Assembly (NCBI GenBank): GCA_937868485.1 | Contig: CALMML010000017.1 | Span: 1 to 39,011 of the forward strand | Origin: an uncultured Myxococcales bacterium | GTDB taxonomy: Bacteria; Myxococcota_A; Polyangia; Palsa-1104; JAEUJZ01 | Direction of reading: 5' to 3' | DNA: 39,011 nucleotides | In this document: piece after piece, positions 14,803 to 38,683 of the stretch | Position numbering within the stretch: position 1 is the first letter of the stretch | How the letters are laid out: each line of letters opens with the position of its first letter | Notes under the pieces: generated by a model | What the model saw: only the letters and a program-made list of their open reading frames with translations | What the model was told of the DNA's origin: nothing | Databases searched by the model: none | Program-made: the position numbers and the translations under genes

Positions 14803-16959
14803 TTACTGCGGCAGCGTGTGCAAGATGGTTCCGCTCATGCCGCTCACCCACACGTCGCTCTGGCTCAGTCCCGAGATGCTGAGCAAGCGGTTGCGGGTGT
14901 TCGTCTCTTTGGCGCTCCACATCGTGCCTTCCATCTTCCACAGCGTGCCTTGGTCGCCGACGATCCACAGGTCGCTGGTGCCGCTCTGTCGCCACAGTCC
15001 GCCGAGGTTTACCGCCGGAAGGCCCGTGCTTACGATCTGCCAGCCGCCGCCGTTGTTTTGATAGACGAGTCCGCCATCACCGACGGCCCAGACATCGGTG
15101 GACGACGTGCCGAAGATGCTGCGAAGCTCCGCGCCGCTGGTGGGGAAGCCGAAGCTGGTGTTGGCGGTGGTGCCAGCGACGTTGCTAAACGCGACGTACG
15201 ACTTGCCGCAGAAGTAGAGCAAGTTGTTGGTGCCCTGCGTCGTTCCCCACATGCTGTTGACGTTGGTGACGCGGTTGGCGTTCGGATCGCTCATGGTGAA
15301 GCCGGACCAGGTCACGCCGTTATACTGGAACAGCCAGGACTGATTCGGCGTGCTCGACGTGGCAACGGACCAGATGTTGGCGGATCCCGAAGCCCAGACG
15401 CCGCGTGCATGCACCGATACCGTCGGATACGAACCGACGGTCCAGTTTTGCCCGAGATAGCGCAGGAACGTGTTGTTGTCACCGACGGCGTAGATCTCGT
15501 TGGGCGACACAGCCCAGATGCCGCTGAGGTTCGCGGTGGTGCCGCTGTCCACTTGGGTCCAGGTGGTGCCGTCGTAGTGCGCGATCAGTCCACCGTCGCC
15601 GATGGCCCAGATGTTCTTGGCGGAAAGCGCTGCGATGTTGCGGAAGTTGGTCTCGAGTCCCCGTCGAGAGCTGCTCCACTTGGTTCCGTCGAAGTGCGTC
15701 AGCTGACCGCCGGCTCCGCTCACCCAGATGTCGCTGGGGCTGCTGCCTCGGGCGGACGTCAGGGCCAAGTTGGTGCTGGCTCCTTGTGGGGTCCAGGTTC
15801 CGCCGCTGCCGCGTAGGATCAGTCCGTTTGTGCCGACGGCGAGATACTGGCCTGCCATCGGGGAAAACACGCCGCCGAGCTGTTCGGTGGTGCCGCTCGT
15901 CTGCATGGACCAGGCAGTGCCCGTCAGGCCGATGATGGTTCCGTTGGCACCGACGGCTACGGCAGTGGTTGCATCGCCCCAGATGCTCGCCAGGTTGGCG
16001 GTCGTCGGGCTGGTCATCGCCGTCCAGTTGTTGCCGTCGAACTTGCGAATGACTCCAGCGTCGCCAACGGCGTACACTTCCGAAGCGGCCCGACCCCAGA
16101 CGCTGGTTAGGTTGGTGGTGACGCCCGACGTCAGCGGGTTCCACGTTCCACCGCTGCGGCGCAGGATGGTTCCGCCTTCACCAACGGCAAATGCGTTGAT
16201 TCCGCTGCCCCAAATCGCTGACAAGCGCTTGGTGCTGCCGGTGGTCTCGGCGGTCCACTGGGTTCCGTCGTAACGGAAGGCCTTTCCATTTGTTCCGACG
16301 GCGATGACTTCCGTGGCAGACGCGGCCCAGACCGACAGCAGGTTTTCGGTGGTTCCGCTCGCGACCGCTGTCCACTTGCTGCCGTCGTAGTGATGAATCG
16401 TTCCGGCGTCACCGACGGCCCAGACATCATTGGCCGCGACCGCCCACAGGCTCTGGAACGTATTTCCCTGCGGCAGCGGATTGGACCAGCAAAACAGGTT
16501 CGGCGCGCACGTCTTGGCCGGTGGCGGCGGCGGACACTGCCGAGGCGATACCGTCTTCATCGACGCGGTGATCTCAAACCGATACGGGCTGCCCACTGGC
16601 GTCGATACGGAGCCACTTCCCACCTTGCACAGCTCTGCGTCGTAGGCATCAATGCCCACCGTCAGCGTGCCCGTCAGCTCTTTGGCCAGTCGCAAGCCGA
16701 AGCGAGTGAGCTTCGTCGTGACTTCCATTGGCTCCGTGTTGGTGGTTGCTTTACCGTCGAGCGTCGTCGTAACAACCAGCTTGGTTGCGTCCGTAGCCAG
16801 CCCGAGTACGTTGATGGCAATGGCGTTGGCGTCCGGCTCGAGCTGACCGGGATCGCAGCTCGACGCCAGCATCGGAAGCGCCAGCAGCAGCGTGTTTCGC
16901 CGCAGCCACGTTGACAAACCACACGACAAAACAGGGCGGAAGGCGAGCTGCTTAATCAT
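14803..16959 (-). CDS. Lipoprotein of about 14 propeller-like W-x-VG-D-G repeats
   Basis: A 718-residue protein with signal peptide and lipobox LASSC (about residues 31-35). A short N-terminal beta domain (to about 150) and a Pro-rich CPPPPPAKTC linker come first. About 13 full repeats and one partial repeat of roughly 39 residues follow. A typical unit reads 'S-I-W-G-x-S-x-x-D-V-W-A-V-G-D-x-G-T-I-x-x-Y-D-G-x-x-W-T'. Units 10 and 11 are longer and more divergent. Such repeats suggest beta-propeller blades, and 14 would fit two seven-bladed propellers. Secreted and membrane-anchored; the function is unknown. It is separated by 9 bp from the TPR gene upstream and may be in one transcription unit with the kinase couplet. 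Confidence 0.85.
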   Translation of the reverse strand: MIKQLAFRPVLSCGLSTWLRRNTLLLALPMLASSCDPGQLEPDANAIAINVLGLATDATKLVVTTTLDGKATTNTEPMEVTTKLTRFGLRLAKELTGTLTVGIDAYDAELCKVGSGSVSTPVGSPYRFEITASMKTVSPRQCPPPPPAKTCAPNLFCWSNPLPQGNTFQSLWAVAANDVWAVGDAGTIHHYDGSKWTAVASGTTENLLSVWAASATEVIAVGTNGKAFRYDGTQWTAETTGSTKRLSAIWGSGINAFAVGEGGTILRRSGGTWNPLTSGVTTNLTSVWGRAASEVYAVGDAGVIRKFDGNNWTAMTSPTTANLASIWGDATTAVAVGANGTIIGLTGTAWSMQTSGTTEQLGGVFSPMAGQYLAVGTNGLILRGSGGTWTPQGASTNLALTSARGSSPSDIWVSGAGGQLTHFDGTKWSSSRRGLETNFRNIAALSAKNIWAIGDGGLIAHYDGTTWTQVDSGTTANLSGIWAVSPNEIYAVGDNNTFLRYLGQNWTVGSYPTVSVHARGVWASGSANIWSVATSSTPNQSWLFQYNGVTWSGFTMSDPNANRVTNVNSMWGTTQGTNNLLYFCGKSYVAFSNVAGTTANTSFGFPTSGAELRSIFGTSSTDVWAVGDGGLVYQNNGGGWQIVSTGLPAVNLGGLWRQSGTSDLWIVGDQGTLWKMEGTMWSAKETNTRNRLLSISGLSQSDVWVSGMSGTILHTLPQ

Positions 16960-16968
16960 GGGCCTCTC

Positions 16969-17736
16969 TCAAAATTGAGGATTTAAGACGGTATCATTCG
17001 GCTGAAAGGGCTCGGGCGTTGCGGGAAGTGGCTCTTTCTTGGCAGCGGTCACACCCACGGCGGTTCCAACGGCTCCTGCGACGACAACGCCACCGATGAT
17101 CGTCCAAAACCACCATTTTTTGTAAATCGGCGTCGCGAGCGTCTGCGACTCAGCGGGGGCGGGCGGCGTCAGGTTGAGCGGCTGCGGACTCGTCGGAGCC
17201 TGCGGCGGCTGCATCGTCAGCCCAGGCGTTCCCGTCGGATTTTGCTGATTTCCCGTCGGATTTTGCTGATTTCCCGTCGGATTTTGCGCCACCAAATCCG
17301 GCTGCGCGGGCGTGTTTTCCAGCAGCGCTTGCGCTTGCTCGATGTACTTGTTTACCCGTCGCTCCGTCTCTGGGTCGATGTTCGGATCGGCTTTTTTGTA
17401 GCGCTCGTAGTAGCCAATCGCTTCTTTGGGACGACCCAGGCGCTGCACCGTGCGTCCGATGTTCAGGAGCAGCCACGGCATCTGTCGTCGCGCATACGCA
17501 CCTTGAAAGCCGCTCAGCGCCTCTTCGTAGCGACCTTCGTCATACAGCGCCAGCGCCTTTTGGTACGCGGTGCGACAGACGGTATCGCGTAGGCAGCCAT
17601 CGTCCTTTTTCTTCGGAGCCGGGCTCTGCGCATTGGCACCGGGATCTCCGTCAGCTGACGCAACCTGAGGCGCGCCTGCAACCAACACAACACCGAGAGC
17701 CAGCTGTCTAGTCCACGATGCGAGGTTGTTCATCAT
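16969..17736 (-). CDS. TPR protein with signal peptide and C-terminal membrane segment (kinase partner 1)
   Basis: A 255-residue protein. The signal peptide (LALGVVLVAGAPQVASA) is followed by two or three TPR-like helices (AYQKALALYDEGRYEEALSGF and NIGRTVQRLGRPKEAIGYYERY). A Gln/Pro/Thr-rich spacer with three QNPTG repeats comes next, then a membrane segment (WWFWTIIGGVVVAGAVGTAVGV) and a short tail. The TPR part should lie in the periplasm. Its start lies inside the 3' end of the kinase gene (29-nt overlap; a second ATG gives 26 nt). The two are thus translationally coupled, and the protein may be a partner or input module of that kinase (inferred). Confidence 0.85.
   Translation of the reverse strand: MMNNLASWTRQLALGVVLVAGAPQVASADGDPGANAQSPAPKKKDDGCLRDTVCRTAYQKALALYDEGRYEEALSGFQGAYARRQMPWLLLNIGRTVQRLGRPKEAIGYYERYKKADPNIDPETERRVNKYIEQAQALLENTPAQPDLVAQNPTGNQQNPTGNQQNPTGTPGLTMQPPQAPTSPQPLNLTPPAPAESQTLATPIYKKWWFWTIIGGVVVAGAVGTAVGVTAAKKEPLPATPEPFQPNDTVLNPQF
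17231..17287. repeat. 21-bp tandem repeat, two full copies plus partial
   Basis: Units beginning CCCGTCGG start at 17231, 17252 and 17273, a period of 21 bp that keeps frame and encodes QNPTGNQ repeats in the linker of the TPR protein. The copies are identical at the DNA level, so the expansion is recent or slippage-prone. Confidence 0.9.
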
Positions 17737-19231
17737 TGCCCTTGCTTGGCGTCGAAGTGGTTTTGCCGATTCCGGGCCGTGGCTTCAGAATCGGACGAAC
17801 GACCGGGGCTTTGTCGAGCGTCTCTTTGCGTGTCTCGTTGTCCGCGAGGCTGAGCTTGATCACCTTGTCGGCAAATCCTGGCAGCTTCAGCTTGACCTCG
17901 CAGGATCCGTCCGACGCGCTCTGGTCCAGCTCCATCGGTGTTCCGCCCAGGATCTGTCCGTCGGAAACTCGGACGATCTGCGCGCCCGGCGGTGTCGTCT
18001 GCACCGACCAGTGAATCTGCTTGGGCTTGGCTGCCACAGGCTGCGGCGGTGCTGGGCTCGCCATATCGACGGGAATCGTCTTGACTGGCTGAACCGTCAC
18101 CACCGGCTTCGGCTGCGGACGCAGCAGCAAGATCGCCAGCACCCCGAGCAGCGCCGTGCCACCACCGAGTAGCCCGAGCAGCAGCATCTTCGGCGAGCGA
18201 CCATTTTGCGCTTGTCCTGCCGACAGTCCCAGCGTCGAAGAAGCCGAGGTTCCTGCCGTCGGGGTCTGGTGCGGATTCGTTCCCGGCGGTGTCAGCGACG
18301 GAGGCAGCAGCGCCGCCATCGAGATCGCCGGCAGCATCGACGTCGGATGTCGCTGTCCCAGCTCTTCCAGACGAGCCATCACCTGCTTCATGTTCGGGCG
18401 CTCTTCGCGCTTCTTCGACAAGAGCAGATGAACAAGCTGCGCAATCTCCTCGGGAACGTGCGGTGCCAGCGTCTTGAGCGGCTGCGGCGGCTCATAGATG
18501 TGCATCGCCAGCACTTCACCCGAGCCACCGACGAACGGCGGACGACCCGCGAGCATCTCGTACAGCATCACACCGAGCGAGTACACGTCGGCTTTGTCGT
18601 CGATCTGCACGCCGCCTTTGCACTGCTCGGGCGCCATGTAGCGTGGTGTACCCATCACCACGTCCGTCGACGTCTTCGGCTGAGCCTGTCCCGGCGCTGC
18701 ATCGTCGGCCTGCGCCACCTTGGCAATGCCAAAGTCGAGCAGCTTCACCCGCTCGCGACCCGGAACCTCCGAGTCATGATCGGGCACCAGCATGATGTTG
18801 TCCGGCTTGAGGTCGCGGTGATAGACGCTCTTTTCGTGGGCGGCTGACAGTGCGGAGGCAATCTGCCGAGCCAGGCGCATCACCTCGGGCAGCGGCGGCA
18901 TCCCTTTGGACTTCTGTCGCTGACTCAGCGTCTCGCCCTTCAGATACTCCATGACGAGATACGCTGTCCCGTCGGGAAGCTGCCCGTAGTCCGAGATTTG
19001 GACGACGCCAGCGTGATCGATCAGGTTGACCGCACGCGCCTCATTAAAGAAGCGAGCGCAGATGCTTGGGTCTTGCGCGTACTTGGGATGAAGGATCTTG
19101 ATGGCGACCCGACGTCCGATGGGGTCTTGAACGGCTTCATACACCGCTCCCATTCCACCTTCGCCCAGCTTGCGAACGACCTGATATGGACCGATACGAT
19201 CGAGAGACACTTTGCGGCTCTTACTTGTCAC
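17708..19231 (-). CDS. Transmembrane Ser/Thr protein kinase with PEGA-like C-terminus
   Basis: PknB-type Hanks kinase of 507 residues. The catalytic domain (about 14-292) has the glycine loop GEGGMG, VAIK (Lys45), HRDLKPDN (138-145), DFG (166-168) and APE (200-202), so it should be active. A Ser/Pro/Thr linker leads to one membrane segment near 350-370 (LLLGLLGGGTALLGVLAILLL). The extracytoplasmic tail holds a PEGA-like domain (SVQTTPPGAQIVRVSDGQIL, GGTPMEL, then KLKLPGFADKV). The GTG at 19231 is the longest start; GTG at 19210 would give MSLDRIGPYQVV, closer to usual kinase starts. The gene overlaps the TPR gene downstream by 29 nt. Confidence 0.93.
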   Translation of the reverse strand: MTSKSRKVSLDRIGPYQVVRKLGEGGMGAVYEAVQDPIGRRVAIKILHPKYAQDPSICARFFNEARAVNLIDHAGVVQISDYGQLPDGTAYLVMEYLKGETLSQRQKSKGMPPLPEVMRLARQIASALSAAHEKSVYHRDLKPDNIMLVPDHDSEVPGRERVKLLDFGIAKVAQADDAAPGQAQPKTSTDVVMGTPRYMAPEQCKGGVQIDDKADVYSLGVMLYEMLAGRPPFVGGSGEVLAMHIYEPPQPLKTLAPHVPEEIAQLVHLLLSKKREERPNMKQVMARLEELGQRHPTSMLPAISMAALLPPSLTPPGTNPHQTPTAGTSASSTLGLSAGQAQNGRSPKMLLLGLLGGGTALLGVLAILLLRPQPKPVVTVQPVKTIPVDMASPAPPQPVAAKPKQIHWSVQTTPPGAQIVRVSDGQILGGTPMELDQSASDGSCEVKLKLPGFADKVIKLSLADNETRKETLDKAPVVRPILKPRPGIGKTTSTPSKGNDEQPRIVD

Positions 19232-20083: not shown

Positions 20084-20258
20084 TTGGTTGGTCCCACACT
20101 GCGGGCAGACGGATGTCGAGCGTGTCCTCAGACGGAGATCCACCCGATCGCGGTGCGCTTTCTGACGGCGTCCTTATACAAGCACGGCCAGAAAAAGACA
20201 GATGAGCGCACGAAACCCTTGCGATGGGTCGGCCCACATTGGTAGCGTCTCGCGCATC

Positions 20259-21520
20259 ATGAGCACGTCCCGCACCCTCTTTTCGCTCGCCTTGGTCGCG
20301 CTTGTGGCTGGCTCCACTGGCTGCGACACGCTGCGTGCTCGTGCGCGCGCACAAAAAGGCGTCGAAAAGTACCGAGACGGGGATATTGCAGAGGCCGCTC
20401 GGCTCTTTCGTGAAGCAGCCGAGATCGACCCGACGGTCCCTCCGATCATCATCAACCGTGGCTTTACCCATCTGGCGCTGTATCAGCTCAATCCGCGAAG
20501 CAAGGAAGGTCAGGAAGCGGCCAACCTCGCGGTGCAGTCGTTCCGTCAGTACATGGATATGCCCAAGCTCAAGCCGGAGCAGCGTCAGCGCGCACGCGAC
20601 TACCTGCTTCAGACCTTCGTGGACGCGAAGAAGTACGACGAGGCTGTCGACTACTTCAAGCCGCAGGTCGAGCGCGAACATCCAGACATCGAAGCGCTGA
20701 CGATCCTTGGCAACATCGCCAAGAGCATCGGCAAGCTGGATGCCTGCCGAGGCTGGCTTGAGCGACGCGTGAAAGCCAACCCGAAGGATCCAGACGGCTA
20801 CGTCTCGCTGGCGATCATGACCTGGGACGAGCTGTGTGCCGATTCGCAGTGTCGGACCGCGCTAGAGCTGCGGAAAAATCAGCTCCAGATGCCGTACGCG
20901 GATCGGATCAGCAAGGCGAACCACGCGCTGGATCTGATCGAGACAGCTCGTCAGCTGTCACCGCAGGCTCCGACGCCGGTGATCTACGGAAACCTGCTGC
21001 TGCGAGAGCGCTCGTACGCGCAGCCAAGCGACGATCTGAAGCGTCAGGACTTGGAAGACGCGGGCAAGCTGCTGCAGCTCGCGTTGGCGATGCAGAAGGC
21101 CGCGACGCAAGCAAGCGCAGGAAAGCCTGCTGATGCAGCTCCCGCCGACGGAAAACCAGCGGAAGCAGCGAAGCCAGGTGACGCCGCCAAGCCCGCGGAA
21201 GCAGCGAAGCCAGGTGACGCCGCCAAGCCTGCGGAAGCAGCCAAGCCTGCAGCACCAGCCAAGCCTGCGGAAGTCGCAAAGCCAGCAGAGCCGCCAAAGC
21301 CACCGGAGCTTACCAAGCCGCCGGTTCCGCCGAAGCCGACTCCGCCGCCAGCGCCTCCCGCTGTGCCTGCTGCACCGAAGAAAAAGAAAAAGGCCGCAGA
21401 GCCTGAGTCTGATCTTCCGCCTCCGGCTGATGCGCCGTTTGCTGGCGGAGCCGCTGAAAAGAAGGAAACGCCTCCTCCCGCAAAAGAGGAAGCCAGTCCG
21501 GCAGCGACGGAGAAGCAGTG

Positions 21521-21521
<1 letters not shown>
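20259..21521 (+). CDS. TPR lipoprotein with long Lys/Pro/Ala tail
   Basis: A 420-residue protein. Signal peptide and lipobox GSTGC (about residues 17-21) make it a lipoprotein. About 260 residues of TPR-like helices follow (KGVEKYRDGDIAEAARLFRE, KKYDEAVDYFKPQVE, LGNIAKSIGKLDACRGWLE, NHALDLIETARQLSP). The last 120 residues are low complexity, with AEAAKPGDAAKP repeats and a Pro/Lys/Glu-rich end. Such tails can span the periplasm or cell wall. The ATG at 20259 is chosen because it starts the signal peptide; the frame opens at 20202. The stop overlaps the TonB-like start (TGATG), so it is the first gene of a motor operon and likely the outer-membrane-side partner. Confidence 0.88.
21159..21243. 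repeat. 36-bp tandem repeat in the lipoprotein tail
   Basis: Near-identical units beginning GCGGAAGCAG start at 21159, 21195 and 21231, period 36 bp, encoding the 12-residue unit AEAAKPGDAAKP. The third unit diverges after about 12 bp. In-frame slippage could change tail length. Confidence 0.88.
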
Positions 21522-22237
<716 letters not shown>

Positions 22238-22266
22238 GCAGACTCGATCGACGCGTAGACAAAAGA

Positions 22267-22337
22267 GCTGCATCGGCGACAGGTGGTGCTCGTAAGAGGG
22301 TGACGCGAGTCACCAAGCCGATGGCAGCAGGTTTTTT
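22267..22337 (+). terminator. Branched hairpin plus T6 between tonB and exbB (attenuator or structured leader)
   Basis: An 11-bp helix with one bulged G pairs 22267-22277 (GCTGCATCGGC) with 22317-22328 (GCCGATGGCAGC). Inside it are two hairpins capped by GNRA tetraloops: CTC-GTAA-GAG (22289-22298) and GGTGAC-GCGA-GTCACC (22299-22314), giving a three-way junction. T6 follows at 22332-22337, three bases after the helix. In an otherwise overlapping operon this could set the TonB to ExbB ratio by attenuation, protect a processed mRNA end, or be a leader with a ligand. I could not match it to a known riboswitch. Confidence 0.6.
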
Positions 22338-22364
22338 CGGTTACCCGGGGAAACGAGGAACAAC

Positions 22365-23072
22365 ATGGAACAAGGAATTAGTTTTAGCCCGAAGGCGATA
22401 TGGGACTCGACGTCCGTCGCCGGTAAGTCCGTCATCATCGTGCTGGCCATCATGGGCATCTACATGCTGGCCGTGAGCATCGAGCGCTGGATTACCTTCT
22501 CTCGTGCCAAGCAGCGGTCTCTGCAGTTCGTGTTCGCGCTGCAGAAGAAGCTGGCGGATCGTGACATCAAGGGCGCTCTCAGCCTCGCCCAGGTGAAGCC
22601 GCAAGGTCCGATTGCCATCGTGATCGAAGCCGCGCTGCAAGAGTACATCGATGGTCTGCAAGCACTGAAGTCGATTGGTCCAGACGAAATTGGTGACTTT
22701 GATCTGCTGGATGCTGTCAACCGCGCCATCGATCGTGTCAAAGAGCGTGAAATTGCTGACCTCAAGAAGGGCCTCGGCGGTCTCGCGACCATCGCTTCTG
22801 CTGCTCCGTTCGTCGGTCTGCTTGGAACCGTCGTCGGTATCATCACCGTGTTTGCAACCATGTCGACGAAGGGCGCTGGCGGTATCGCGGCTGTGGCCGG
22901 TGGTATCGGTGAAGCACTCGTGACCACTGCGTTCGGTCTGCTCGTCGCAATTCCTGCGGTTATGGTGTTCAACTTCTTCACGAACGCCATTGACGAGTTC
23001 GTCGTGGACATGAACGAGACGAGCAGCGAGCTGGTTGCGTTCATCCTGCGCGAAGGCCGACGGGCCGCGTAG
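22365..23072 (+). CDS. exbB: MotA/TolQ/ExbB-family proton channel subunit
   Basis: Inner-membrane stator subunit that conducts protons with ExbD and drives TonB or a Tol/Agl-type machine. It has 235 residues with the usual three membrane segments: about 19-41 (GKSVIIVLAIMGIYMLAVSI), 141-163 (the conserved APFVGLLGTVVGIITVF), and 182-205 (GEALVTTAFGLLVAIPAVMV). The cytoplasmic loop between segments 1 and 2 contains the AIDRVKEREIADLKKGL helix. A ribosome site (ACGAGGA) precedes the ATG. The name exbB is by family and by neighbouring TonB; TolQ or AglR would be equally compatible by sequence alone. Confidence 0.93.
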   Translation: MEQGISFSPKAIWDSTSVAGKSVIIVLAIMGIYMLAVSIERWITFSRAKQRSLQFVFALQKKLADRDIKGALSLAQVKPQGPIAIVIEAALQEYIDGLQALKSIGPDEIGDFDLLDAVNRAIDRVKEREIADLKKGLGGLATIASAAPFVGLLGTVVGIITVFATMSTKGAGGIAAVAGGIGEALVTTAFGLLVAIPAVMVFNFFTNAIDEFVVDMNETSSELVAFILREGRRAA

Positions 23073-23126
23073 TTGCAGTAACCGTGCGGTCTTTTTGACC
23101 GTCGGCTCATGGACGAAGGACCAAAG

Positions 23127-23651
23127 ATGTCCGACTTGGATGAACTGCTCAAAAATCCTCCTCGGTTGCCTCCTCGGAAGCACCGACGTCATGCGCGCCA
23201 TTCGATCAAGAACGCGGGGATCCGTTCAGAGATCAACGTCACGCCGCTCGTCGACGTCGTGCTGGTGCTCCTTATCATCTTCATGGTCGTGACGCCGATG
23301 ATCACGCGCGGTATGCCTGTCGAGCAGCCGGTGACTCGCCACCACGATAAGAAGAACGACTCCGGCGAGCAGATCGTCGTTTCGGTTACCTGCGAAGGCG
23401 GCAAGATGGGCGCAATCCACTGGGAATGCGCGCAGTCGCGGATGTTTGTCGGCTCGGACCTTGCGACGGACGAAACGCTGGGTGAGCTGGTGCAGAAGGA
23501 AATGCGCAAAGGCTCCGGTGGCCGTGAAGTCCACATCAAGGGTGATCGGCGTGCGTCGTATGGCGCGGTTCGTCACGCGATGGAGCTGGTCAATGCTGTC
23601 GGTGTGCCGCAGGTTCACCTTGGCTCCGAAGAGTACAAGGAGGCCAACTAG
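23127..23651 (+). CDS. exbD: ExbD/TolR-family motor subunit 1
   Basis: Single-pass partner of ExbB. It has 174 residues with a basic N-terminus (RKHRRHARHSIKN), then INVTPLVDVVLVLLIIFMVV with the proton-carrying Asp at residue 43. A periplasmic domain follows, longer than usual, with an insert holding two cysteines (VTCEGG and HWECAQS). It ends with the conserved IKGDRRASYGAVRHAMELV. The ATG at 23127 is chosen because AAGGA precedes it at good spacing; an in-frame ATG lies at 23109. A second exbD follows after 2 bp. Confidence 0.92.
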   Translation: MSDLDELLKNPPRLPPRKHRRHARHSIKNAGIRSEINVTPLVDVVLVLLIIFMVVTPMITRGMPVEQPVTRHHDKKNDSGEQIVVSVTCEGGKMGAIHWECAQSRMFVGSDLATDETLGELVQKEMRKGSGGREVHIKGDRRASYGAVRHAMELVNAVGVPQVHLGSEEYKEAN

Positions 23652-23653
23652 CC

Positions 23654-24064
23654 ATGGCATTCTCAGCAGGTGGCAATAAAGGCCCACGCTCAGACATCAA
23701 CGTCACGCCGCTTATCGACGTCGTGCTCGTGCTTCTTATCGTGTTCATGGTGATGGTGCCGAAGCTGCTGAACCAGACGCAGATCGACGTACCGCCCAAA
23801 GCGCCGCCGACCAGCATGAATGAACCGCCGCCTTCGTCGGATCAGCTGGTTGCGACGGTGGCTGAAGACGGTCGCGTCGCCATCAACGGTGAAGCAATTC
23901 CCATCGATGGTCTGGCGGACAAGGTTCGGTCGCTGCTTCAGAACCGCTCGAAGAAGATCATCTTCTTCAACCCCGACGATGCTGCGCCGTATGGCGATGT
24001 CGTCAAGGCCATGGATATCTGCCGAGGCGCTGGTGTGAAGACGCTCGGCATCATGACCAAGTGA
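23654..24064 (+). CDS. exbD: ExbD/TolR-family motor subunit 2
   Basis: A second ExbD/TolR protein, 136 residues, shorter than its neighbour. It carries DINVTPLIDVVLVLLIVFMVMVP with the key Asp at residue 22 and a compact periplasmic domain ending MDICRGAGVKTLGIMTK. AGGAGG-like bases in the end of the first exbD serve as ribosome site. ExbB with two different ExbD proteins is the arrangement seen in myxobacterial motor sets such as AglR-AglQ-AglS. The two Asp-bearing subunits may form a heterodimer in the channel. Confidence 0.93.
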   Translation: MAFSAGGNKGPRSDINVTPLIDVVLVLLIVFMVMVPKLLNQTQIDVPPKAPPTSMNEPPPSSDQLVATVAEDGRVAINGEAIPIDGLADKVRSLLQNRSKKIIFFNPDDAAPYGDVVKAMDICRGAGVKTLGIMTK

Positions 24065-34994: not shown

Positions 34995-36008
34995 ATGGGA
35001 ACCGCGATCGCCGCTGGGCGCGGGGGGATCGTCCGTCGCTCGGTGCTGTGGCTTTCGGTGCTGGCCAGCGTGGGCGGCTGCGCGTCGATTCCGTCGAGCC
35101 TACGCAACCTTCACCGAGGCTGCTCACAAGGAAACAGCGCGTCGTGTGTCTCACTCGGCAGCGCGCTGTACGAAGGCAAAGATCCCAGCGGCGGTCACGT
35201 CGATCTGGACTATGCCAAAGCGCGTCAGGCCTTCACCGCAGGCTGTAAGCGCGACGACGCGGCCAGCTGTCAGCGACTGGGAACGATGCTCGACAAAGGC
35301 GAAGGCGGAGAGCGCGACAAAGTGCTCGCCGTCGAGCTGTGGCGACATAGCTGCGAGCTGGGCGACGGAATTTCGTGCAGCAAAACCGCCGAGAGCTACA
35401 TGACTGGCTCCGTCGGGATCAAGAACAACGACATCGCGTTTGCCTATGCCAAGACCGGCTGTGAGCAGCGCGACGAGCGCTCGTGTGTGCTGTGGAAAAA
35501 GCTCGGTGGAACGCCGCGCGTGCTGGTGGCGCCGGTGGGAAGTGAGCTGGCGTCGCTCATCAGCGCGTGTGAACAACAGAATGACTCACGCGCGTGCTTT
35601 ACCGTCGGTGAGCGCTTCGACAAAGGCGACGGAGCCGAGCAGAACAAAGAAAAAGCCGCCGCCAGCTATCGCTTTGCCTGTCAAAAAGGCGACATGCGCG
35701 GCTGTCACAACCTGGGCGTGATGATGATAAACGCCGAGGGAATTCCCGCCGATCGTCCGGGCGGACTGCTCTTGCTCAACAAGTCGTGTGACTCGGGCCA
35801 GCGCGCAAGCTGCGATCAGATGGTGCGTCTTCTGACGGTGCTGTGTGGTCGTAGCGACGGGGACGCTTGCACGATCCTCGGGCGACTCTACATCAAGGGC
35901 GACAAAGGCTTGGAAACCAACGTCACCAAAGGACTCGAGTATCTTCGCCGAGGCTGTAGCGCGGGTGACAAAGACGGCTGCGACGATGTAAAGCGGCTCG
36001 GTCTGTAG
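34995..36008 (+). CDS. Sel1/Hcp-like repeat lipoprotein with paired cysteines
   Basis: A 337-residue protein. Signal peptide and lipobox VGGC are near residues 26-29. It is built of Sel1-like alpha-alpha repeats (LGTMLDKGEGGERDK, YAKTGCEQRDERSC, NLGVMMINAEGI, LGRLYIKGDKGLETN). Nine repeats carry Cys pairs, nearly all spaced C-x7-C: GCSQGNSASC, GCKRDDAASC, SCELGDGISC, GCEQRDERSC, ACQKGDMRGC, SCDSGQRASC, LCGRSDGDAC, GCSAGDKDGC, plus one C-x8-C. This is the disulfide-stapled repeat of Helicobacter Hcp proteins. Being a lipoprotein, it should act in the oxidising periplasm, probably as a protein-binding scaffold. AGGAAGC precedes the ATG. Confidence 0.9.
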   Translation: MGTAIAAGRGGIVRRSVLWLSVLASVGGCASIPSSLRNLHRGCSQGNSASCVSLGSALYEGKDPSGGHVDLDYAKARQAFTAGCKRDDAASCQRLGTMLDKGEGGERDKVLAVELWRHSCELGDGISCSKTAESYMTGSVGIKNNDIAFAYAKTGCEQRDERSCVLWKKLGGTPRVLVAPVGSELASLISACEQQNDSRACFTVGERFDKGDGAEQNKEKAAASYRFACQKGDMRGCHNLGVMMINAEGIPADRPGGLLLLNKSCDSGQRASCDQMVRLLTVLCGRSDGDACTILGRLYIKGDKGLETNVTKGLEYLRRGCSAGDKDGCDDVKRLGL

Positions 36009-36032: not shown

Positions 36033-36872
36033 TTAGCGCTGATACGCGTCGACGCCGAACAGCACCGCAGAGATTCCAAACATCACGCCGCCCGTCGCCA
36101 GCAATCCGACGCCCGGCCACTTGGTCGCGAGCGGATCGTTACACAGGCTCGGAAAGTCGCTACAGCTGCGCATTCCGTCGATCCCGAGCAGCGTGCCACC
36201 GACGCCCATCGTCGCAATCCCGATCACACCGAGCGTCCACTTGGCCGCGCGCAGTCCCGTTCGCGGCTGTGGTGTCGTCAGATAGGCGCTGCTGACATCG
36301 ACGGATGTAATCGACTCTCCGCTCTGATCGGCGACCTTGATGGTCTTGATTTCGGCGGCTCCGATGCTGATCTGTTCGATGTCGTCGGCCATCACCAAGC
36401 GATGCGTGCCTGGCTCGACCCACGCGTCGAGTGAACCTTTGGGAATCGGCGCTTCTTCGTCGATTCGCAGGGGCGACAACAGCGCATGGGAAAACACCAA
36501 GTGCCCCAGATCTTTTTGCAGGCGAGTGATGGCTCCCGTCGCATCTTCGGTCTGTCCCGGCAGTCGCTCCGCGTGTGGCACCTTGCGCAGAAACTGCTGA
36601 TACGAGCGCATCGCCGACAGCTTTTGACCGACCGCTTCGTAGACGCGCGCCAGGCTGTACTGGATCTTTTCCGTCGGATACAGCATGTACGCCGCTTCAA
36701 GCAGCATCTGCGTCTTGGTAAAGTCCCGTCGCTCAAACGACTGCGTGGCTTCTTGCGCCAGCGAACGAGCCACGAGCCGCGCTTTTTCTTTTTGCGGATC
36801 GTCGCTGCGCTTTTCGGCCCAAGCGGTGGACTGACAGCACAACAGCGTGAGGAGCAGAGCGCGCGCGTTCAT
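36033..36872 (-). CDS. TPR protein with PEGA-like and membrane segments (kinase partner 2)
   Basis: A 279-residue protein. The signal peptide (ARALLLTLLCCQSTAWA) is followed by TPR-like helices (ARSLAQEATQSFERRDFTKT, YSLARVYEAVGQKLSAMRSYQQFL). A PEGA-like stretch comes next (LSPLRIDEEAPIPKGSLDAW, WVEPGTHRLVMADD), then a Ser/Thr linker and two membrane segments (TLGVIGIATMGVGGTLLGID and VGLLATGGVMFGISAVLFGV). The ATG overlaps the kinase stop by 1 nt (TGATG), so production is tied to the kinase. In order it resembles the TPR protein at 16969-17736, but with an added PEGA-like part. The function is inferred as a sensing or docking partner of the kinase. Confidence 0.85.
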   Translation of the reverse strand: MNARALLLTLLCCQSTAWAEKRSDDPQKEKARLVARSLAQEATQSFERRDFTKTQMLLEAAYMLYPTEKIQYSLARVYEAVGQKLSAMRSYQQFLRKVPHAERLPGQTEDATGAITRLQKDLGHLVFSHALLSPLRIDEEAPIPKGSLDAWVEPGTHRLVMADDIEQISIGAAEIKTIKVADQSGESITSVDVSSAYLTTPQPRTGLRAAKWTLGVIGIATMGVGGTLLGIDGMRSCSDFPSLCNDPLATKWPGVGLLATGGVMFGISAVLFGVDAYQR

Positions 36873-38683
36873 CACACCCCGGGATCGATTTTGATGCGCT
36901 TCGAGCTGTCGCTCGGCGTTCGTGAGCTGGGCCGCTTGCCGGAGCCGGTGCTGCGACCGCTCGGTTGACTGGTCTTGCTGGGCGGACTGTCGTCGCTGCC
37001 GACTGTGGTTGCGCCGCCATCGCTGGCCGTTCCGTTGTCGTGCGGCTCGGTGGTCGCCGGCGGGCTGCTGACGGCCTGGGTTTTTTCGCTGGTTCCATCG
37101 CCGCTGAGCAGCCAGATAAGACCCGCGATGCCAAACACGATGGCCGCGCCGCTGAGTCCCAGTCGCAGGTTCGATCGAGGCTGGACGCCGATCGTCGACA
37201 AGATCAGGGCAACCGGCGCACTGCTGGTGGCGCGAATCGCGGAAGAAGACAGTGCTCCGCCGGAAATCGCTTGCTGTCCCGTCGCGCGCGACAGCGTGCT
37301 CGGATACGGATCAAACGGACGATCTTCGGTCGGAACCCGCAGTCCTGGTTCCGCGACGGGTGGCGTCGGGTCGTTGCTGCCGGTGAGCCGCGTCGGACCT
37401 TGCTCGAACTCGCGGGCGACTGCTTCCGGTGACACCGGCGTGGCCGCAGACCGACTGAGCAGCGCCTGCATCTCCGCTTCATTGAGCACGATGTTGGTCG
37501 GCGTATTTCCGCTCGGTGCCCGAGGCTGCGAGCGGGTCTCTACCCGCGTAGGAACCGGCGTAATCGGCGGTGTGACCTGTGGGGTCGTCGGCGGATCAAA
37601 CTTCGGCGTCGGGGTTCCGCCCACCGTCAGACCGCCTTTGACCGGCAGTCCGCCTGGTCCCGTTGGCATGTGTCCAACGCTCGGCATCGCAGCAGGCAGC
37701 CGAGGCTGCGCAACTTGCGGCGGCGGACTTGGCTGCGAGCGCGCGGGCTCAACCGGCTGCGCAGGGCTTAGGTTCAGTCGCGACGCGGCGGCTCCGGTCT
37801 GACCCAAGATGGCTTTGACGAAGTCGACCATCCGAGGGAAGCGGTCTTCCTTCTTCTTCGACATCGCCCGCTCGATGGCAGCGACGACATGATCCGGCAG
37901 ATCCGGCGCAAGCTGCTTGAGCGGCACCGGCTTTTCATGCACGACCATGTACAGCACGCCGACCGGGTTTTCGCTGTCAAACGGCAGCCGTCCCGTCAGA
38001 CACAGGTACATGATGACCGCCAGCGACCACTGATCTGCGCGTCCATCGATCGCGGAGTTTTGCCCAAGCGCTGCTTCCGGCGACATAAACTGCGGCGTGC
38101 CAAGCAGCGTCATGTCGCGCGTCATCTGCGCGCCGTTGCGTCGAATCTTCGAGATGCCAAAGTCCACGACCTTGGCCACTTCCGACACCATGTCCGCGAT
38201 GTCGTGACGCACCAGGAAGATGTTTTGAGGCTTGACGTCGCGGTGTACGATGCCCTTGTCGTGGGCGGCGTGCAGTGCTGAGCCCACTTGACGCGCGATG
38301 TCGATGACTTCGGGCAGCGGCAAGCGGCGAACGCGACACAGACGCTGATACAGGTCTTCGCCTTCGAGCAGCTCCATGACGATAAACGGCGTGCCGTCTT
38401 CGTCTTGGTCAAAGTCGGTGACTTGCACGATGTGCGGATGACGCAGCGCCGACACCGTCTTGGCTTCATCTTGGAAGCGCTTGTAGATCTCGGCATCGGC
38501 AGCCGTTTCGCGATGCAGCACTTTGACCGCAAACAGTCCGCCGGTCCGAACATGACGCGCTGCGTAGACTGCGCCCATGCCGCCACCACCGAGCACTCGC
38601 TCTACGTGATAGGTGCGGCTCAGCGTGCGTCCCAGAAGCTCGGCGCCCTGTTGGGCCTGCGCAGTCAACGGCTGTCTCTCCAC
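36872..38683 (-). CDS. Transmembrane Ser/Thr protein kinase
   Basis: PknB-type kinase of 603 residues. The catalytic domain (about 25-290) has the glycine loop GGGGMG, FAVK (Lys54), HRDVKPQN (147-154), DFG (174-176) and the SPE variant of APE (MSPEAA), so it should be active. About 230 residues of Pro/Thr/Ser-rich linker follow (PTPKFDPPTTPQVTPPITP), a likely autophosphorylation region. One membrane segment (LSGAAIVFGIAGLIWLLSG, near 520-538) comes next, then a short Ser/Thr/Pro/Arg tail with no folded sensor, unlike the kinase at 17708. The TPR gene overlaps its stop by 1 nt. A TATAGT hexamer lies 33 bp before the start, a possible -10 box without a clear -35. Confidence 0.93.
   Translation of the reverse strand: MERQPLTAQAQQGAELLGRTLSRTYHVERVLGGGGMGAVYAARHVRTGGLFAVKVLHRETAADAEIYKRFQDEAKTVSALRHPHIVQVTDFDQDEDGTPFIVMELLEGEDLYQRLCRVRRLPLPEVIDIARQVGSALHAAHDKGIVHRDVKPQNIFLVRHDIADMVSEVAKVVDFGISKIRRNGAQMTRDMTLLGTPQFMSPEAALGQNSAIDGRADQWSLAVIMYLCLTGRLPFDSENPVGVLYMVVHEKPVPLKQLAPDLPDHVVAAIERAMSKKKEDRFPRMVDFVKAILGQTGAAASRLNLSPAQPVEPARSQPSPPPQVAQPRLPAAMPSVGHMPTGPGGLPVKGGLTVGGTPTPKFDPPTTPQVTPPITPVPTRVETRSQPRAPSGNTPTNIVLNEAEMQALLSRSAATPVSPEAVAREFEQGPTRLTGSNDPTPPVAEPGLRVPTEDRPFDPYPSTLSRATGQQAISGGALSSSAIRATSSAPVALILSTIGVQPRSNLRLGLSGAAIVFGIAGLIWLLSGDGTSEKTQAVSSPPATTEPHDNGTASDGGATTVGSDDSPPSKTSQPSGRSTGSGKRPSSRTPSDSSKRIKIDPGV

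Follow-up and report, generated by a model that had tools for sequence, protein, structure and literature searches.

The stimuli that activate bacterial Ser/Thr kinases have been called an outstanding question (PMC6069109). In Actinobacteria, an operon encodes the solute-binding sensor lipoprotein GlnH, the membrane protein GlnX and the Ser/Thr kinase PknG, and the TPRs of PknG have been suggested to link the detection of the signal to the kinase (PMC6069109, PMC8546545, PMC9769921). PknG is soluble and has its TPRs fused to the kinase, while GlnX is a multi-pass membrane protein. PknB/Stk1 kinases combine a cytoplasmic Hanks-type domain with one transmembrane (TM) segment and an extracytoplasmic C-terminus bearing PASTA repeats. 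In BT4663 hybrid two-component sensors, tandem beta-propellers serve as periplasmic module and are fused to a histidine kinase. In Myxococcus xanthus, the Mkap proteins have been described as scaffolds that associate with a network of Ser/Thr kinases (PMC6458408).

This work describes two Ser/Thr kinase genes, both overlapping with a downstream gene whose product is an exported TPR protein. They lie in a stretch of 39,011 nt (hereafter the window), which is contig G000:C17 of an uncultured Myxococcota genome (G000; 6.36 Mb, 514 contigs). Similar to the actinobacterial operon, a lipoprotein, a membrane protein and a kinase are encoded together, and the third gene of some related loci encodes a solute-binding protein (Bmp or ANF_receptor; L167, L159, L177). 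In contrast to that operon, the kinase is transmembrane, the TPRs reside in an exported protein of their own, many paralogous sets occur per genome, the lipoprotein of module A carries propellers and couplet B has no third gene. Neither kinase shows the PknG-type layout of fused TPRs without a TM segment. By analogy, the module would work like the GlnH-GlnX-PknG system without being a member of it. The kinases resemble PknB/Stk1 in their predicted topology, but a PEGA domain or a disordered tail replaces the PASTA repeats, of which Pfam detects none in either kinase, and the partner is encoded by a separate gene. The best NCBIfam match, PknB_PASTA, is limited to the kinase domain and reaches 264 bits against a cut-off of 450. 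The propellers recall BT4663, yet here they belong to a separate lipoprotein beside a Ser/Thr kinase. With Mkap the couplets have in common the scaffold idea and a kinase network in a myxobacterium; export or overlapping gene pairs are not reported for Mkap, and the two are set apart by description only. No description of the kinase-TPR pairing or of the lipoprotein domain reported below was found in the open-licence literature searched. The parts are of known kinds, and their arrangement appears to be a new one.

Gene content of the two kinase loci

Pfam Pkinase matches exactly two genes on the contig, kinase A and kinase B. They and their neighbours are encoded as follows:

14803..16959, minus strand: third gene of module A, a lipoprotein of 718 aa with an N-terminal beta-sandwich domain and two beta-propellers
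16969..17736, minus strand: TPR-A, an exported TPR protein with signal peptide, two TPRs and a capping helix, Pro-rich linker, YKKWWFW-TM helix and short tail
17708..19231 (likely start 19210), minus strand: kinase A, a Ser/Thr kinase of 507 aa (Pfam Pkinase E 2.1e-51, PEGA E 2.5e-4)
34995..36008, plus strand: Sel1-repeat lipoprotein gene (Sel1 E 1.1e-18, lipobox-like start)
36033..36872 (ATG start) or 36033..36875 (GTG start), minus strand: TPR-B, an exported TPR protein with signal peptide, TPR, PEGA-like domain and two C-terminal TM segments
36872..38683, minus strand: kinase B, a Ser/Thr kinase of 603 aa with catalytic motifs and a TM segment (Pfam Pkinase E 5.5e-45)

The catalytic motifs are complete in both kinases (Gly loop, VAIK-type Lys, HRDxKPxN, DFG, M[AS]PE). 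Hydropathy predicts a single TM segment in each, between the kinase domain and the C-terminal region; with a complete Pkinase domain and one predicted TM segment, they are Hanks-type transmembrane Ser/Thr kinases. In kinase B, the catalytic domain (aa 25-255) is followed by a long Pro-rich linker, the TM segment (~aa 508-526) and a disordered tail; based on hydropathy, the catalytic domain is predicted to be cytoplasmic and the tail periplasmic. Kinase A has its TM segment at ~aa 350-368, a PEGA domain at aa 409-469, likewise predicted to be periplasmic, and a tail ending in PRIVD.

The preliminary description had stated that both kinase genes run into a gene whose product is an exported TPR protein with membrane segments, and this is seen at both loci. 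Couplet A (16969-19231) has an overlap of 29 nt. At the junction of couplet B, GGGGTGTGATG (TGATG), the overlap is 1 nt when TPR-B starts at the ATG at 36872 and 4 nt when it starts at the GTG at 36875. These start-stop overlaps suggest translational coupling at both junctions. The congeneric genome G002 carries both couplets as well, with the TPR genes ~19 kb apart on one contig, and all couplet genes are under purifying selection relative to G002 (dN/dS 0.09-0.20).

Both partners carry a signal peptide and belong to the TPR superfamily (tandem 34-residue helix-turn-helix repeats), TPR-A by Pfam, AlphaFold2 and Foldseek and TPR-B through its relatives. The C-terminus comprises one hydrophobic segment in TPR-A and two in TPR-B. 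The AlphaFold2 model of TPR-A has a pLDDT of ~97 for aa 50-140, a TM helix at aa 207-229 and a short, low-confidence cytoplasmic tail. Carboxylate-clamp TPRs, which bind the EEVD of Hsp70/90, have three repeats with a Lys/Asn/Asn/Lys/Arg clamp; TPR-A has two repeats and a cap, and its N92 is nearly invariant. TPR-B on its own gives a weak Pfam match (TPR_14, E 0.039), but in the ten-row alignment of its family (A3) TPR_2 is found in 8 and PEGA in 5 of the rows, and the relatives have a TPR-PEGA-two TM architecture.

Module A (14803-19231) is a three-gene operon and not a two-gene module: its third gene starts 9 nt behind TPR-A, with a plausible Shine-Dalgarno sequence. The 718-aa product has no Pfam or NCBIfam match. 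AlphaFold2 predicts an all-beta N-terminal domain (~aa 46-141, moderate confidence) followed by two beta-propellers, and Foldseek matches tandem propellers, including the periplasmic sensor domain of BT4663, at the fold level only (~13% identity). Couplet B (36033-38683) has no third gene on its own strand in the window. The Sel1-repeat lipoprotein gene is convergent to TPR-B at 24 nt and is taken as a neighbour only, not as a module member; a convergent gene likewise lies behind the TPR-B orthologue of G002. Elsewhere in the window (20202-24064), a TPR protein gene precedes small membrane protein genes on the same strand that look TolQ/ExbB- and ExbD-like by eye; they may form a separate envelope energy-coupling cluster.

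Kinase-TPR and TPR-lipoprotein linkage across Myxococcota

Surveys were performed on retrieved stretches of genomes, using a purpose-written, simple codon-usage gene caller that reproduced the window genes. The TPR detector misses degenerate TPRs, so that survey counts are more likely low than high. In G003, a genome of the same family as the source, 19 of 42 TPR-A family places lie on the same strand and at most 2.6 kb behind a kinase domain, versus an expectation of ~2% per place (binomial 4e-21); three further places are divergent and one is convergent. Among named metagenome-assembled genomes (MAGs), a kinase is encoded directly upstream in 22 of 58 TPR-A loci, these 22 being spread over 15 of 28 assemblies. 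Of the 427 remaining neighbours on that strand in these stretches, 17 have a kinase upstream (p 8e-13). The kinase-TPR gaps include -29, -13, -11, -4 (four times) and -1. For TPR-B, a gene matching the kinase HMM lies directly upstream in 12 of 27 usable best relatives from other genomes. The genes mostly overlap or abut (gaps -11, -4, -1, -1, -1, 0, 0, 2, 22, 23, 31 and 184). Pfam Pkinase is present in nine of the ten upstream kinases scanned; the kinase at L033 is unconfirmed, with no Pfam match, and as the stretch ends ~1.5 kb upstream of the TPR match its domain may lie beyond. The proposed pairing of kinase and TPR genes thus shows strong enrichment and is found again in many genomes of Myxococcota, often with overlapping genes; the lack of enrichment elsewhere that would have spoken against the preliminary description is not observed. 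Still, over half of the TPR-A loci lack a kinase gene directly upstream, so that the kinase is not an obligate partner.

The MAG assembly JADYYK has at least 11 TPR-lipoprotein pairs without a kinase directly upstream (L201, L205, L208, L212, L216, L226, L232, L236, L238, L245, L246), some with lipoproteins of 1,200-1,700 aa; pairs of this type may work with distant kinases or without a kinase. At L176 (G000:C255) and L193 (JAEUKB), a close TPR-A paralogue lies 60 nt behind the gene for a polytopic membrane protein of ~830 aa, with no kinase.

The gene behind TPR-A is linked even more closely. Its products have in common an N-terminal domain of ~110 aa, predicted to be all-beta (14803-16959, L175, L185, L144, L178, L190-L262); in the propeller members, Pfam does not match it. 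In 48 of 53 GTDB cases, which supplied most of the training sequences, a domain HMM detects it in the product encoded next to TPR-A on the downstream side. In G003, it is present in 11 of the 17 genes that follow a TPR gene versus 3 of 255 others (four G003 lipoproteins were in the training set), and in G000 in 7 of 13 versus 0 of 519 (partly training). Two of the three off-slot genes in G003 adjoin such a slot or sit one gene beyond it. The domain is almost only found in the gene directly behind TPR-A family genes. It is followed by FG-GAP repeats at L178, and slots without it can hold ANF_receptor/Peripla_BP_6 (L177) or BMP-type (Bmp; L167, L159) binding proteins. In the named MAG loci, the gap between the TPR gene and the next gene is often -4 or -1. 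This domain linkage and these close gaps mark the TPR gene and its lipoprotein gene as the tighter unit; a kinase gene often, but not always, comes first. A lipobox gene follows in 8 of 27 TPR-B relatives.

A first alignment of 21 rows was too diverse for a pattern scan. One exact codon spelling of YKKWW[LF]W was found in 25 of 284 genomes in a phylum-wide scan; the motif appears to be patchy across the phylum, and a single-spelling pattern is too narrow for more.

A proposed periplasmic adaptor model and its alternatives

The preliminary description proposed the TPR protein as the periplasmic sensor or scaffold of its kinase, a role that is plausible. We consider it rather probable that each couplet comprises a kinase and a dedicated exported TPR partner, and that the latter serves in the periplasm as an adaptor between a receptor and the transmembrane Ser/Thr kinase. 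The catalytic domain would reside in the cytoplasm, and the PEGA domain and/or disordered tail at the kinase C-terminus would face the periplasm. The TPR protein would be exported and anchored by one or two C-terminal helices, displaying its TPR unit (in type B together with the PEGA-like domain) in the periplasm. In type A, the adaptor would receive its signal from the lipoprotein receptor encoded next, probably bound via the N-terminal domain. A type B adaptor would sense the signal directly or take it from a receptor whose gene lies elsewhere. The adaptor would then act on the extracytoplasmic part of the kinase, thereby changing kinase association and autophosphorylation. The resulting envelope relay would run from receptor lipoprotein to periplasmic TPR adaptor, kinase ectodomain and cytoplasmic phosphorylation. 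For this model we infer the topology (from hydropathy), the physical contacts and the direction of signalling; the order and overlap of the genes, their enrichment, conservation and purifying selection, the domain content and the lipoprotein-TPR linkage are observed. The model is favoured by the frequent pairing and by the overlaps at both junctions, and the kinase ectodomain and the TPR unit are predicted on the same membrane side. The third gene encodes an exported lipoprotein with an N-terminal domain largely confined to this slot and a variable remainder, which can be of the ligand-binding families ANF_receptor and Bmp or a double propeller with a fold-level match to the BT4663 sensor domain. 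The GlnH-GlnX-PknG system serves as a precedent (PMC6069109, PMC8546545). Against the model stand the non-obligate kinase, the lack of a same-strand third gene in couplet B and the failure of a tail-docking idea.

That idea held that the TPR protein docks on a hydrophobic-tipped, disordered C-terminal tail of the kinase. Such tails occur in 9 of 12 partnered versus 11 of 57 unpartnered kinases in G000 and in 19 of 20 versus 7 of 35 in G003, by a criterion set after inspection of those tails (RIVD, EIAD, IDPF). With the criterion fixed beforehand, there was no difference in G031 (3 of 6 versus 16 of 30), a genome in which the TPR detector under-calls, and docking on the tail is kept as a lead only. 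Many single-pass kinases of distant Myxococcota (L190-L260, L330-L368) have [IL]DPF-like ends (TIDPFK, TLDPFRKK, LTLNPFR), with or without a TPR gene next to them.

The signal could also run in reverse, with the TPR membrane protein as output or substrate whose cytoplasmic tail is phosphorylated by the kinase, affecting lipoprotein assembly or display. The TPR-lipoprotein pair being the tighter unit, often without a kinase gene, fits this reading. We nevertheless regard it as unlikely, given that the cytoplasmic tail of TPR-A is short and modelled with low confidence and that some third genes encode solute-binding proteins, better suited to a receptor than to cargo. Less likely still is a self-contained export or anchoring pair of TPR protein and lipoprotein, comparable to the use of TPRs in BamD/PilF, with a merely co-regulated kinase. 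Its points of support are the many kinase-free TPR-lipoprotein loci and a weak similarity of the TPR proteins to BamD and PilW models, but these similarities lie far below curated cut-offs and are generic for TPRs, and co-regulation by itself would explain neither how often kinase and TPR genes are linked nor how tightly they overlap.

Relationship of the two couplets

The two loci had been viewed as one repeated two-gene module. The same layout indeed occurs twice; the kinases, however, belong to separate clades, the partners have only the TPR unit in common, and A comprises three genes. Kinases A and B are 43% identical over the catalytic domain. BLASTP finds no similarity between TPR-A and TPR-B, and alignment of their family profiles is confined to the TPR unit (96 columns, 99.7%). 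In a tree of 165 kinases of G000 and G003 (FastTree only), 27 of 29 partnered kinases fall within one half of 66 rows, and the partner label changes 17 times versus 27 when shuffled (0 of 500). Kinase A belongs to an all-partnered clade of five (FastTree support 95). Kinase B lies outside the partnered half, among mostly unpartnered kinases and in a set of four (98) with the unpartnered L121 and L162; when B-type kinases of other genomes were added, it fell among ten rows (96), five of them B-type and five unpartnered. The placement of the kinases and the restriction of partner similarity to the TPR unit indicate two types of partner, which have related TPR units and go with different kinase lineages. 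PEGA as a feature of only one of the two partners was rejected, as several B-type kinases carry PEGA and so does the family of their partners.

A duplication of one two-gene module would account for the common layout and for the profile-level alignment of the TPR units, but it is very improbable in view of the separate kinase clades, the different membrane anchors, the lack of similarity outside the TPR unit and the third gene in A only. Chance adjacency in a genome rich in both kinase and TPR genes (the G000 stretches retrieved contain ~120 genes or gene fragments for kinases) is dismissed with near certainty by the counts of three separate surveys (G003, named MAGs and TPR-B relatives).

Many G000 kinase matches are incomplete and located at the ends of contigs. 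It seems that the assembly is broken inside conserved kinase domains, which makes kinase counts in such MAGs uncertain. Against some 120 kinase genes without obvious inputs in G000, the gene pairing links ~10-20 kinases per genome to a candidate partner and many of them also to a candidate receptor. The pairs probably show which sensor feeds which kinase, and some candidate receptors are of ligand-binding families, so that kinase inputs become directly testable. More tentatively, and with slightly less than even confidence, we propose a modular receptor system of Myxococcota in which exported TPR adaptors, tens per genome, would plug interchangeable lipoprotein receptors (propellers, FG-GAP, solute-binding), many via the unnamed N-terminal domain, into transmembrane Ser/Thr kinases, with the TPR-PEGA-two-helix couplet B as a second wiring on a different kinase lineage. 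If this is true, chemoreceptors that work with periplasmic binding proteins would have a Ser/Thr-kinase counterpart in this system.
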